A DNA stretch of 64,000 nucleotides, taken from positions 21,548 through 85,547 of the forward strand of contig CANMMF010000014.1 in NCBI GenBank assembly GCA_947498985.1. The letters run 5' to 3'. The notes below the pieces were generated by a model, which did no database searches, was not told the DNA's origin, and saw only the letters and a list, made by a program, of their open reading frames with translations. The DNA comes from an uncultured Paracoccaceae bacterium. Its GTDB lineage: Bacteria; Pseudomonadota; Alphaproteobacteria; Rhodobacterales; Rhodobacteraceae. The number at the start of each line of letters is the position of its first letter. The first letter of the stretch is position 1. Shown piece by piece: positions 58,546 to 61,940 of the stretch. A program made the position numbers and the translations under genes.

Positions 58546-59160
58546 CTAGCTCCAGATTCTGGAGATAACCGTCTTTCTCTCGAAGTTTCGCACCGCGATC
58601 TTGTTCGCATAAATGTCGGGAAACAATTCTATGGATGTTTTCAGAATTTTCAGGTTAAGGACAAATATACCGAAACTCACAGAATACCAAATTTCGCTGG
58701 CAGGAGAAGTGTAGGTCTGCATCACGACAAAAAACAGAAAAAATCCTCCTGCAAAATAGTAGAAATAGTCCAGAACTTTGGGCCAGGACTTTTTCTCAGG
58801 CCAACACTTCTCACAAATCTGGTTCATGGCCCCGCCAACGCAATAAAAAAGCAAGTGAGCCCAGCCGGTGAAGAAGAAAAACGCGATAACAACGCGGATG
58901 CCCGCTGAAGATAAATCACCTTGGGTCGCAGTATCTAACGCCGTGCGCACAAATAGCGCTCCTCCGTAGAAAGACATGCACGCGACTGCCAGCAAGGCAA
59001 CAGCAATAGAAACACGAGATTGCCAAGGCAACTCAACCAATGCTTCTTCGTCAAGATCGCCATCCAAGCTGACAATGGTGGGTCTCTTAGAGTAGCGGCG
59101 ACCCAGCAAGATATCTAAGCCAACCAGAAAAACAGAAACCGAAATAAGGACCCAAATCAT
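58546..59160 (-). CDS. Five-helix membrane protein, operon with caspase and bS18-fusion
   Basis: 204 residues with about five hydrophobic segments (near 2-19, 50-71, 88-110, 128-148, 156-172). Two Cys lie in QICEKCWPEKKSW. Unrecognised. The ATG starts 2 bases after the stop of the fusion gene. Possible membrane effector of the system (inference). Confidence 0.75.
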   Translation of the reverse strand: MIWVLISVSVFLVGLDILLGRRYSKRPTIVSLDGDLDEEALVELPWQSRVSIAVALLAVACMSFYGGALFVRTALDTATQGDLSSAGIRVVIAFFFFTGWAHLLFYCVGGAMNQICEKCWPEKKSWPKVLDYFYYFAGGFFLFFVVMQTYTSPASEIWYSVSFGIFVLNLKILKTSIELFPDIYANKIAVRNFERKTVISRIWS

Positions 59161-59162
59161 GT

Positions 59163-60755
59163 CTATTTCACCGCATAAGGAAGAAGCGCCAAGAACCTAG
59201 CCCTTTTGATTGCAAGCGCAAGTTCTCGCTGCTTTTTCGCACTAACTGCCGTAATCCGTGATGGTACGATCTTCCCCCTTTCGGAGATGTACCTTTGCAG
59301 CAATTTCGTATCTTTGTAATCGATCTTAGGGGCGTTCTCGCCTGAAAACGGGCATACCTTTCGCCTCCGAAAAAATGGCTTCGAAGAACCACCCCCAGAT
59401 CCTTTGGCCGCAATCGCAACCGCCTGCGAACCAGACCCATCACCAGTTTTCGCAATACGGCCACTTTCTTGGACAAAAGTGGTCTCCACTTGGTGCATTG
59501 GCCTTTTTTCGGCAAGCTTGACTAATTCAAATGCAGCTCCCAGCTGACCATCAACTTCGACGGATTGCATAGAGAACGATGTTGTGTGCGACAAGGCATC
59601 TAAGAGCCGTTCTACAGGAACGCTCATCTCTTGCGAAAACTCGTCAGCAACTGCCTTGGCATCGATTCTAGGCTCTGAAGGTGAAGTGGCGTCATAGGTC
59701 AAATGGAGACTTCTCCAAGCTGCTGCGCTTGCCAAGCCAAGTGCTCTTTTTAAGGCGCCGCTCAGTTTGCTATTTTCGCGAAGTAGTGATCGAACCTCTT
59801 CCTGATAAACCATGAGCATTGCACAGTACTCCCGGAAAAGACCAGACTTCGTTTCTCCATCCAATAGAAGTTCGTCGATCCTTTGAATAGTATCACCTAT
59901 TAGTGATTTCTCGAAACCAAACCTCATTCCAAGCGTCAACGCCAACCCCATAGCATGATTAACACTTGGCTTTGATCGAGTGCAAACATCTTCGAAAAAG
60001 TTTCCGGCATCCTCCAAAAGTTCTGTGGCAGTTCTCGATGTATCAAAGGTCTCCGAACGACACAGCCAATGTACTACGGCGTAGTAGTCTTCATCGGTCT
60101 GGGGAAACCGCGGATTTTCAAGCTTCTTCTGTATAAATAGGTCACATGCTATTGGCTTGTTCCATCGCAAAAACTTCCAGTAATCTTGATTGTCGTCGGA
60201 GCGCGAATTGGTCTCCAGCCGCACGGTGCGATGTAATTCCCCCCCTTCTCCCGGCATGAGAGAGAACGATTTTACATCACGAAAGCTATAGAATGTAGAG
60301 TGGCCGTTTGTATCTATGACCTGCAAATGAGAAATATCGTTTTCCCCAGTCGGCACCTCAAGATAAAATGTCGGTGGGGCTCCCTTAGCTTCAGCTTCAA
60401 GGCGCCTGATTGAGAAATCTCTTGTTCGTGTTTCCTTAGACCACGCCGCAACACTGCATGTTAGTAGATCTCTAGAACTTCTTTCATCAAAATTGCAGAC
60501 ATGTGCTCCTGAACGCAGCCAAATCAATTCGGAGGTCTTGGCTTGATCTTGAAAAATATCCTTCAGTACTTGGTCGACTCTTTGACCGAGGTGGCTTGAT
60601 CTTAGTCGAAAAGTTTTTCCATTTGGCGCTTGGATATGCAGTGAATCTACATGCCTTAGGCCTTTAAGGTCCTCATTTTGAGAGACTAAAGAATATTCGA
60701 GCCTTCCACTTTCCAAAAGGGCGTTCACAAAGAGGTTGAGACTTTGCCTACTCAC
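59163..60755 (-). CDS. Unknown protein with C-terminal ribosomal protein bS18 domain
   Basis: 530 residues, GTG start. Residues ~1-430 match no family I know (helices around DYYAVVHWLCRSETFDTS, SLIGDTIQRIDELLLDG). A Gly/Ser-rich linker (GSGSQAVAIAAKGSGGGSS) leads to residues 459-530, a nearly complete alphaproteobacterial bS18: FFRRRKVCPFSGENAPKI, LLQRYISERGKIVPSRIT, KKQRELALAIKRARFLALLP and YAVK. The frame is uninterrupted through the join. It sits 3 bp after the caspase-like gene and 2 bp before the membrane protein. The S18 part could place the protein on the ribosome or act as bait. Confidence 0.85.
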   Translation of the reverse strand: MSRQSLNLFVNALLESGRLEYSLVSQNEDLKGLRHVDSLHIQAPNGKTFRLRSSHLGQRVDQVLKDIFQDQAKTSELIWLRSGAHVCNFDERSSRDLLTCSVAAWSKETRTRDFSIRRLEAEAKGAPPTFYLEVPTGENDISHLQVIDTNGHSTFYSFRDVKSFSLMPGEGGELHRTVRLETNSRSDDNQDYWKFLRWNKPIACDLFIQKKLENPRFPQTDEDYYAVVHWLCRSETFDTSRTATELLEDAGNFFEDVCTRSKPSVNHAMGLALTLGMRFGFEKSLIGDTIQRIDELLLDGETKSGLFREYCAMLMVYQEEVRSLLRENSKLSGALKRALGLASAAAWRSLHLTYDATSPSEPRIDAKAVADEFSQEMSVPVERLLDALSHTTSFSMQSVEVDGQLGAAFELVKLAEKRPMHQVETTFVQESGRIAKTGDGSGSQAVAIAAKGSGGGSSKPFFRRRKVCPFSGENAPKIDYKDTKLLQRYISERGKIVPSRITAVSAKKQRELALAIKRARFLALLPYAVK

Positions 60756-60758
60756 CGT

Positions 60759-61940
60759 CTAATCCTCATCCACAGTGTACACAGAACTAGAACTTGAGAT
60801 GCTGCAAGACCTAAGTAACGGCCCCTTTTTTTTGCGGCGCCGTGTGCCATTATTCGAGAACTGAAGTGCTTGATATTTGGTAGCGCCATCATCCTCACGA
60901 CTAATGTCGATATCAAACCCCTCATCAAATTCCCTCAAGTCATCCGAGATATCCGATTTTTGACCCATACGGTCCATACGGACCTCACAGATAAATCTCT
61001 CAGGGTTCCAATTGATGTCGCAAGCGACTTTTGGCTGCGGAACCCTTAGAAGTGGGTAGAAGCGATTTCCGCTCCTCGTCATTTCCGTGATTGAGTCATA
61101 GTTACCCCATGTCCGTCGAACGTTTCTGCTCCCAAAACGCCGCCTGAGCCACTGACGCATTTTTCTTTCGATAGGGTCTTCGAGACTCGATGGCTCCACG
61201 TAATAATCAGATGAAGTGCTTCGCTTGACACCGCCAAAGTGCGTGAAGCTTAGAAGTGCAGCCTCAGAAAAAATAGTTCCGCCCCGAAAATCATCAATTC
61301 CATTGTCTCTCTCAACTTCGAAGCTCTTTTTGCCCAATTGCGCAGCTTGCAAGACCATTGGCGCTCGAGCCGAGACATCGAATTTTCCGGAAATAGGTGG
61401 CGTCATGAGATCCTGAGCCAGAACATCTTCGTCTTTCGAGGAACGACAAGCATCGACAAAACAGAAGAAACGACCTTTACCTCTTGATCGGAGTCTGTTC
61501 TCAAAACCTGACCAATTTAAACCTCGCAAAGATCCGACGGTATCGGATTCATCGGAACACCATAGGGCTTGCAATTGAGCGCCATCTCGCCCAGCTACCA
61601 ATCCATGACCAACCCAGTGAAGAATTCCAAGATCGGAAGGACCAACAAGTTCATACCACTCGTTAACTGCTTTGAATACGTTTAATCGAGTTGCTCTTTT
61701 AGCGCTGTGTGCAGCTTGGTGGCCTTGGACAAGATTAGCTTTTGTTTCTTGGTTGGCCGAAAGCAATAAGGAAATTGAGCCTAGGTCATGATTTGAAGGA
61801 AGCGTTTGATCTTCTGCCTTTGAACTCCAAAAGTCGAATAGCCTTACCGACGTCGCACAGGCTTCTGCTAGCGGTGGGAACTCAATGTCGTAATCTCCAA
61901 CACCAACTATCAGGACATGCACGTTTGAATGTGAAGGCAT
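60759..61940 (-). CDS. Caspase-like cysteine protease
   Basis: 393 residues from ATG 61940 (GAGG upstream; an in-frame TTG lies 15 bp earlier). Caspase fold: HVLIVGVGDYDIEFPPL at the start, catalytic His112 in LGILHWVGHGL and Cys165 in FFCFVDACRSSKD. The C-terminal 150 residues are unassigned, ending in a basic patch (RRRKKKG). First gene of a tight three-gene operon. Bacterial caspase-like proteases often act in antiphage systems by cutting a partner. Confidence 0.85.
   Translation of the reverse strand: MPSHSNVHVLIVGVGDYDIEFPPLAEACATSVRLFDFWSSKAEDQTLPSNHDLGSISLLLSANQETKANLVQGHQAAHSAKRATRLNVFKAVNEWYELVGPSDLGILHWVGHGLVAGRDGAQLQALWCSDESDTVGSLRGLNWSGFENRLRSRGKGRFFCFVDACRSSKDEDVLAQDLMTPPISGKFDVSARAPMVLQAAQLGKKSFEVERDNGIDDFRGGTIFSEAALLSFTHFGGVKRSTSSDYYVEPSSLEDPIERKMRQWLRRRFGSRNVRRTWGNYDSITEMTRSGNRFYPLLRVPQPKVACDINWNPERFICEVRMDRMGQKSDISDDLREFDEGFDIDISREDDGATKYQALQFSNNGTRRRKKKGPLLRSCSISSSSSVYTVDED

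Follow-up and report, generated by a model that had tools for sequence, protein, structure and literature searches.

The operon analysed here is located on the minus strand at positions 58546-61940 of the window (the whole 64,000-nucleotide stretch of DNA from an uncultured Paracoccaceae bacterium), and its three open reading frames encode a caspase-like protease, a protein that ends in ribosomal protein bS18, and a membrane protein. The operon occupies one end of a 44-kb genomic island associated with tRNA-Phe. The features referred to below are:

60759 to 61940, minus strand: caspase-like protease gene, 393 aa, with a His112/Cys165 dyad (open reading frame, PADLOC model, alignment of nine caspases)
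59163 to 60755, minus strand: fusion gene, 530 aa, comprising an N-terminal part, a linker and bS18 (open reading frame, Pfam, NCBIfam, homologue P0005)
59508 to 60755, minus strand: N-terminal part of the fusion, residues 1-416, of no known family (Pfam, PADLOC, NCBIfam and PHROGs scans, low-confidence model)
59382 to 59507, minus strand: linker of the fusion, residues 417-458, rich in Gly, Ser and Lys, 54.8% identical to that of P0005
59166 to 59381, minus strand: bS18 tail of the fusion, residues 459-530, 70 of 72 residues identical to the host S18
58546 to 59160, minus strand: membrane protein gene, 204 aa, four separate hydrophobic segments (open reading frame, Pfam, hydropathy scan)
57190 to 58434, minus strand: tyrosine integrase gene, downstream of the operon (Pfam)
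18215 to 18289, plus strand: tRNA-Phe, left end of the island
62315 to 62360, plus strand: right end of the island, formed by a direct repeat of the final 46 tRNA-Phe bases (45 of 46 bases matching)

The gaps of 3 bp between the caspase and fusion genes and of 2 bp between the fusion and membrane protein genes, all on the minus strand, bear out the tight three-gene operon described in an earlier note on this DNA. Motifs resembling ribosome-binding sites (GAGG, GAGGA and GGTGA) lie directly upstream of the starts of the caspase, fusion and membrane protein genes, respectively. The fusion gene begins with GTG, and its homologue P0005 starts at the same residue. For the caspase gene, the TTG at 61955 proposed in the open reading frame listing was discarded in favour of the ATG at 61940, because the caspase homologue P0006 starts at the ATG. 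An S6:S18-type leader RNA was sought with Rfam: no model matched the surroundings of the operon at E ≤ 1, and the host rpsF-rpsR region gave four unrelated matches far under their cut-offs and no leader RNA of this type. The GC content was 47.1% in the operon, 53.7% in the interior of the island and 63.5% in the left flank.

The final 46 bases of the tRNA-Phe gene (18244-18289) recur with one mismatch at 62315-62360 and thereby bound the island, whose cargo includes genes for integrases, a relaxase, a coupling protein, an ArdC-like protein, HipA and a primase. The single genome of the same genus (G250, among 394 genomes drawn from the family) gave no match to the fusion's N-terminal part; when the DNA of 20 relatives was searched, the matches listed for this genome were confined to the tRNA-like repeat and the final 77 bases. 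No TIR match, the mark of type IV Thoeris, was found among the 32 window reading frames scanned with Pfam.

The first gene was identified as a caspase by a PADLOC model (E = 2.3e-10, residues 51-192 in the numbering of the TTG-start frame), and had no Pfam match at E ≤ 1. Its two motifs are GHG, containing His112, and DAC, containing Cys165; the histidine of the first and the aspartate and cysteine of the second were invariant in the alignment of nine caspases, in agreement with the His/Cys dyad recognised at the outset. From the aspartate that precedes the AC we assume a preference for basic P1 residues as in metacaspases, which would point away from cleavage of a glycine-rich linker. The AlphaFold model, built from a two-sequence alignment, reached a pLDDT of 28, a value too low for recognising a Canu-type C-terminal Ig-like fold. 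P0006 (81% identity) was the sole caspase homologue among 3795 scored candidates. A caspase profile (A2) matched seven of the 394 family genomes at E ≤ 0.01, namely the host and six genomes with partial matches (best E = 2.7e-5), and a second profile (A3) matched 35 of 385 genomes of the class; 14 of these regions were examined. Scans of viral contigs yielded no relative of the caspase or of the membrane protein.

The second gene encodes the 530-residue protein reported to end in a nearly full-length bS18, and this reading holds: the S18 model TIGR00165 matched residues 461-528 with 98.2 bits (cut-off 38.75, E = 2.4e-28), PF01084 matched the tail with E = 6.9e-24, and residues 459-530 correspond to residues 4-75 of the host S18, that is, to bS18 lacking its first three residues (72 of 75). 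Residues 1-458 had no family match at E ≤ 1 in Pfam, PADLOC, NCBIfam or PHROGs. The profile search and structure prediction proposed for the N-terminal part assigned it to no family, and provided only an AlphaFold model of very low confidence (pLDDT 33, two-sequence alignment) in which this part is first beta and then helical. Identity between the window fusion and P0005 was 69.0% for residues 2-188, 83.8% for residues 189-416, 54.8% for the linker and 90.3% for the S18 tail, and within the otherwise variable linker the motif AKGSG is common to both proteins.

The host keeps its own rpsR apart from the fusion, intact and in its place between rpsF and rplI. An S18 search of the 394 family genomes found a match in 379, and two matches in the host only. 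Among 7997 scored candidates there was one homologue of the fusion, P0005, which is also 530 aa long, is 77% identical over all columns and bears the S18 tail. A one-off recombination or an assembly artefact, which the earlier note had named as refuting its proposal, is excluded by the retention of the tail in a protein of the same length at this degree of divergence. P0006 and P0005 are very likely encoded on one and the same contig, because both derive from contigs of 4163 bp; the third gene was not seen on the contig of P0005.

The fusion is rare. Its N-terminal part was matched in one of the 394 family genomes, which was the host itself, and had no match in viral contigs (pattern scan), plasmids or phages. 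A pattern scan across 84,980 species genomes recovered 408 relatives, of which the best 80 were examined; these are S18 matches, since none aligned to residues of the fusion before 418. A search for other S18 fusions returned 27 proteins of 292-927 aa among 74 candidates, two of them being the known fusions, and none of the remaining 25 (14 inspected at full sequence, 11 judged from Pfam lists) had the same design. Many of these 25 have the appearance of read-through across the region of rpsF-rpsR-rplI. In genome G263, the S18 within a 748-aa frame is an ordinary rpsR after rpsF, and the frame is due to a GC-rich run upstream. In these searches the fusion design was found in two examples only.

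The tail was compared with the S18 proteins of 103 of 110 family loci (80 loci came from a selection by similarity to the query and 30 from the best-scoring matches; seven were dropped, as their S18 was not found by pattern). Relative to the host rpsR, 60 of 216 bases in the tail are changed, yet only two of 72 residues are; random placement of 60 base changes altered 36.8 residues on average (2000 trials, minimum 28). At fourfold sites, 26 of 32 positions differ between tail and host rpsR (0.81), compared with a median of 0.40 between host rpsR and the family, and no rpsR gene of the 103-member set exceeds 76.4% identity to the tail DNA. Part of this synonymous divergence may predate the fusion: a donor rpsR could have carried in synonymous changes, which weakens the codon test as sole proof of selection after the fusion. 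For this reason we relied on a comparison internal to the two fusions, which is free of this weakness: seven of 72 residues differ in the tail versus 19 of 42 in the linker (Fisher's exact test, p = 4e-5). The tail is also more conserved than residues 2-416 (p = 0.011), but such slow change is not peculiar to S18, as residues 189-416 nearly match its conservation. The substitution patterns indicate that the tail is kept as S18 by selection. All 52 positions that are invariant across the 103 S18s are retained in the window tail, which has one residue unseen in that set (an R-to-L change at tail position 56); the P0005 tail has four unseen residues and departs, by conservative changes, from two of the 52 (L to M and V to I). 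Because such residues occur in both tails but are absent from 94 of the 103 S18s (leave-one-out), the constraint is looser than on a housekeeping S18.

The third gene does encode a membrane protein, but not evidently the five-helix protein first proposed: a plain hydropathy scan found four separate hydrophobic segments in its 204 residues, and no fifth passed the cut-off. A Pfam match to RSN1_7TM (20 bits, cut-off 28.7) was not trusted. Searched against PADLOC with a gasdermin partner in mind, neither the fusion nor the membrane protein had a match at E ≤ 1, in a library that may or may not include a gasdermin model.

Related caspases were sought on plasmids. Sixteen plasmid records weakly matched the window caspase (best E = 1e-3), and nine of them were opened. 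In six (L116, L117, L119, L120, L121 and L124) the caspase gene is followed by a gene for a partner of 377-503 aa and then by one for an MBL-type protein; L122 has a caspase and a 550-aa partner with no adjacent MBL gene, and in L118 and L123 the caspase is larger and is accompanied by a 290-aa gene. Scans of two of the six MBL proteins gave matches to LmuA, Avs1a and RTasMBL models, two more match these by BLAST, and those of L120 and L124 were called by reading the sequence. A second search gave 23 records, ten of which were opened and combined with one record from another search. A partner profile matched ten of these 11 loci (all but L177); seven of the ten had been used to train it, and L182, L185 and L186 are new. 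An MBL profile matched two (L180 and L183). The same partner profile detected a partner in two of the 14 examined A3 regions, L162, which is also in its training set, and L163. Caspase and partner form one chain in the plasmid loci L180 and L184, L163 is likewise a single open frame, and the partner of L181 bears a C-terminal pYEATS domain. The window caspase aligns with the plasmid caspases over about residues 2-175 (21-28% identity).

By their layout, rather than by direct comparison with KaeCanABC, we assign the plasmid caspase-partner-MBL operons to Canu (CanABC), a system of caspase, partner and MBL pro-nuclease that protects E. coli from T4 and in which, as described in PMC12799240, CanA is bound to CanB in a soluble complex and the CanC nuclease is activated by the caspase. 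The window operon resembles these operons in having the caspase gene first, a larger partner second and a candidate effector third at tight spacing, and in its intact caspase dyad, with the His and Cys that are invariant among the Canu-type caspases of the plasmids. It differs in that its middle protein ends in bS18 and is not homologous to Canu-type partners by the profile test, and in that its third gene encodes a membrane protein, not an MBL pro-nuclease. None of the 525 window frames matched the MBL profile (built from six Canu-type MBL proteins) or the partner profile at E ≤ 0.1. A helical pattern that by eye seemed common to the middle protein and Canu-type partners did not stand up: partner profiles built from up to 15 loci, a set that does not include KaeCanB, gave the middle protein and P0005 either no score or about -1 bit. 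Where these were scored, 355-649 of 2000 shuffled sequences equalled or exceeded them, whereas held-out partners scored 8.6-69 bits, which at most one of 2000 shuffles reached. In a companion search with a partner profile, shuffles led and the middle protein was absent among the matches listed, and its hhalign comparison with Canu-type partners gave P = 0.28. Judged by sequence, the window operon is not a member of Canu, but it plausibly works like one. The defence role initially suggested is favoured to the extent that related caspases occur in defence-like operons of Canu layout and that the operon is carried by an island.

In the text of PMC12799240, the named bacterial caspase systems are linked to CRISPR, TIR signalling, gasdermin or CARD proteins, or a phage-helicase-linked trigger. 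The statement that no defence system with a ribosomal-protein fusion is known has to be narrowed: ribosomal-protein-like domains (L12/ClpS and S1-like) are reported in predicted conflict systems in PMC7159879, with no full bS18 in the passages concerned. The beta-propeller vWA systems described there have such a domain in a predicted conflict protein, but as an L12/ClpS insertion; neither a near-native full ribosomal protein nor S18 is mentioned in those passages. EACC1-caspase systems also combine a caspase with a neighbouring membrane protein and a predicted conflict role, but EACC1 is the 5' gene and has one transmembrane helix (PMC7159879); the window caspase scored 12 bits against the EACC1-associated caspase model, under the cut-off of 140. 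A bS18 fusion with a caspase, or in abortive infection, was not found described in searches of the open-licence PMC literature, and in the excerpted text of PMC12839542 S18 appears only in a reference. The fusion is set apart from an ordinary rpsR by the 458 residues ahead of the tail, its position outside rpsF-rpsR-rplI, the lack of a free N-terminal alanine and its location on an accessory island.

We tentatively favour, as a possible function, an abortive-infection switch of the Canu kind whose caspase partner would be tethered to the 30S platform by the S18 tail. bS18 is located on this platform by the mRNA exit, next to uS11 and the bS21 site, and in F. johnsoniae borders the anti-SD pocket (PMC10901742, PMC9976891); it binds 16S rRNA as a heterodimer with bS6 (PMC10931766). 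bS18 chains with N-terminal extensions occur in solved ribosomes (7jil, 98 aa; chloroplast 28jw, 137 aa; sequences only), and eight of 60 distinct S18 chain sequences listed begin only at query residue 17-23 (sequences, not coordinates). To judge from these sequences, there is plausibly steric room for an N-terminal cargo attached by a flexible linker. In this model, a small share of 30S subunits would carry the fusion instead of bS18, with its N-terminal part facing outward near the mRNA exit, where it might bind the caspase and hold it in check, in the manner of CanB with CanA. A phage that attacks ribosomes or the platform would disturb the complex and free the caspase, which could then cut the linker, the membrane protein or both; the membrane protein would stand in for the Canu nuclease, and the cell would be stopped or killed. 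Cleavage of the linker is a reasonable guess, because AKGSG is kept in both fusions and because conserved glycines in the Canu gating insertions are hypothesised caspase sites, mutation of either predicted site having ablated defence (PMC12799240). The fuller scheme, in which a ribosome with hybrid S18 is itself the sensor and phage meddling with its platform slips the leash of the protease, is rather doubtful; its candidate triggers would be extra bS6, S18 acetylation, bS6 phosphorylation and 30S decay.

The tail could also act outside ribosomes, as a bait that mimics free bS18 or bS6-bS18, so that a phage factor binding or modifying these trips the caspase. bS6 genes occur in phages, host bS6 is phosphorylated by T7-like kinases (PMC6375957), one jumbo phage has a gene for an S18 N-acetyltransferase (PMC13157829), and the pairing of bS6 with bS18 and the looser constraint on the P0005 tail would suit such a decoy. 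We nevertheless consider it unlikely: the 52 invariant positions kept in the window tail (not mapped on a structure) seem to exceed what a surface bait needs, and the N-terminal alanine that RimI acetylates is not free in the fusion. Delivery of an active caspase to ribosomes, where it would cut ribosomal proteins or initiation factors and turn translation off, accords with the preserved tail and with the neighbourhood of bS18 (uS11, the bS21 site and the mRNA exit), but would leave the membrane protein unexplained and depends on purely conjectural substrates, and is improbable. The extreme rarity of the fusion, with one other homologue, might suggest that an accessory gene captured rpsR by chance, with no role related to ribosomes or defence; the same size and tail across 23% divergence, the slower change of the tail than of the linker, the island location and the caspase neighbour make this distinctly improbable. 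In an assembly-poison model, the fusion would compete with bS18 and yield defective 30S subunits until a caspase cut in the linker released a functional S18, much as in the ubiquitin-ribosomal protein fusions of eukaryotes. This would fit the retained AKGSG and the nearly complete S18 but is highly improbable given that natural N-extended bS18s occur in ribosomes.

If the favoured reading, a Canu-like switch docked through its S18 tail, is true, the operon would be an immune switch sited on the ribosome and would represent a novel means by which cells perceive infection. A caspase neighbour with a near-native ribosomal protein under selection as its tail would then make the surveillance of ribosomes for phage attack directly testable.

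The 44-kb island that carries the caspase operon at one of its ends is bounded by tRNA-Phe (18215–18289) and a 46-base direct repeat of the 3' end of this tRNA (62315–62360). Integrase DNA lies on both sides, and the two stretches (18404–18722 and 63605–63923) are 78% alike, which suggests tandem islands. Immediately beyond the right repeat follows one gene:

62533–63189, minus strand, DUF6946 gene (match E = 5.8e-87)

The window ends where the contig, 85547 bases in length, ends, and the assembly was probably broken at this point by a repeat, because the final 77 bases (63924–64000) have four further copies elsewhere in the genome, with 100% identity over 74–77 bases. 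Within the island, which also holds a relaxase and a coupling protein, two adjoining genes were read as thymine hypermodification genes, a class mostly of phage:

48140–50165, plus strand, thymidylate-synthase-like gene and ADDT/aGPT-Pplase3 amino acid:DNA transferase gene

The search for other S18 fusions yielded P0030 (532 aa, four member sequences), in which an N-terminal S18 domain precedes a long region with hydrophobic stretches and which may represent a second kind of S18 fusion.

Among loci with distant relatives of the caspase, the Canu-type caspase and its partner form a single chain in L180 (3965–6481) and L184 (3959–5893), and a pYEATS domain forms the C-terminal end of the caspase partner in L181 (5176–7008). 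Long frames in L182, L186 and the genome locus L163 contain matches to the partner profile, with other protease or PLD genes nearby. Based on these fused chains, the pYEATS end and the latter gene settings, effectors seem to be swapped among partner modules.
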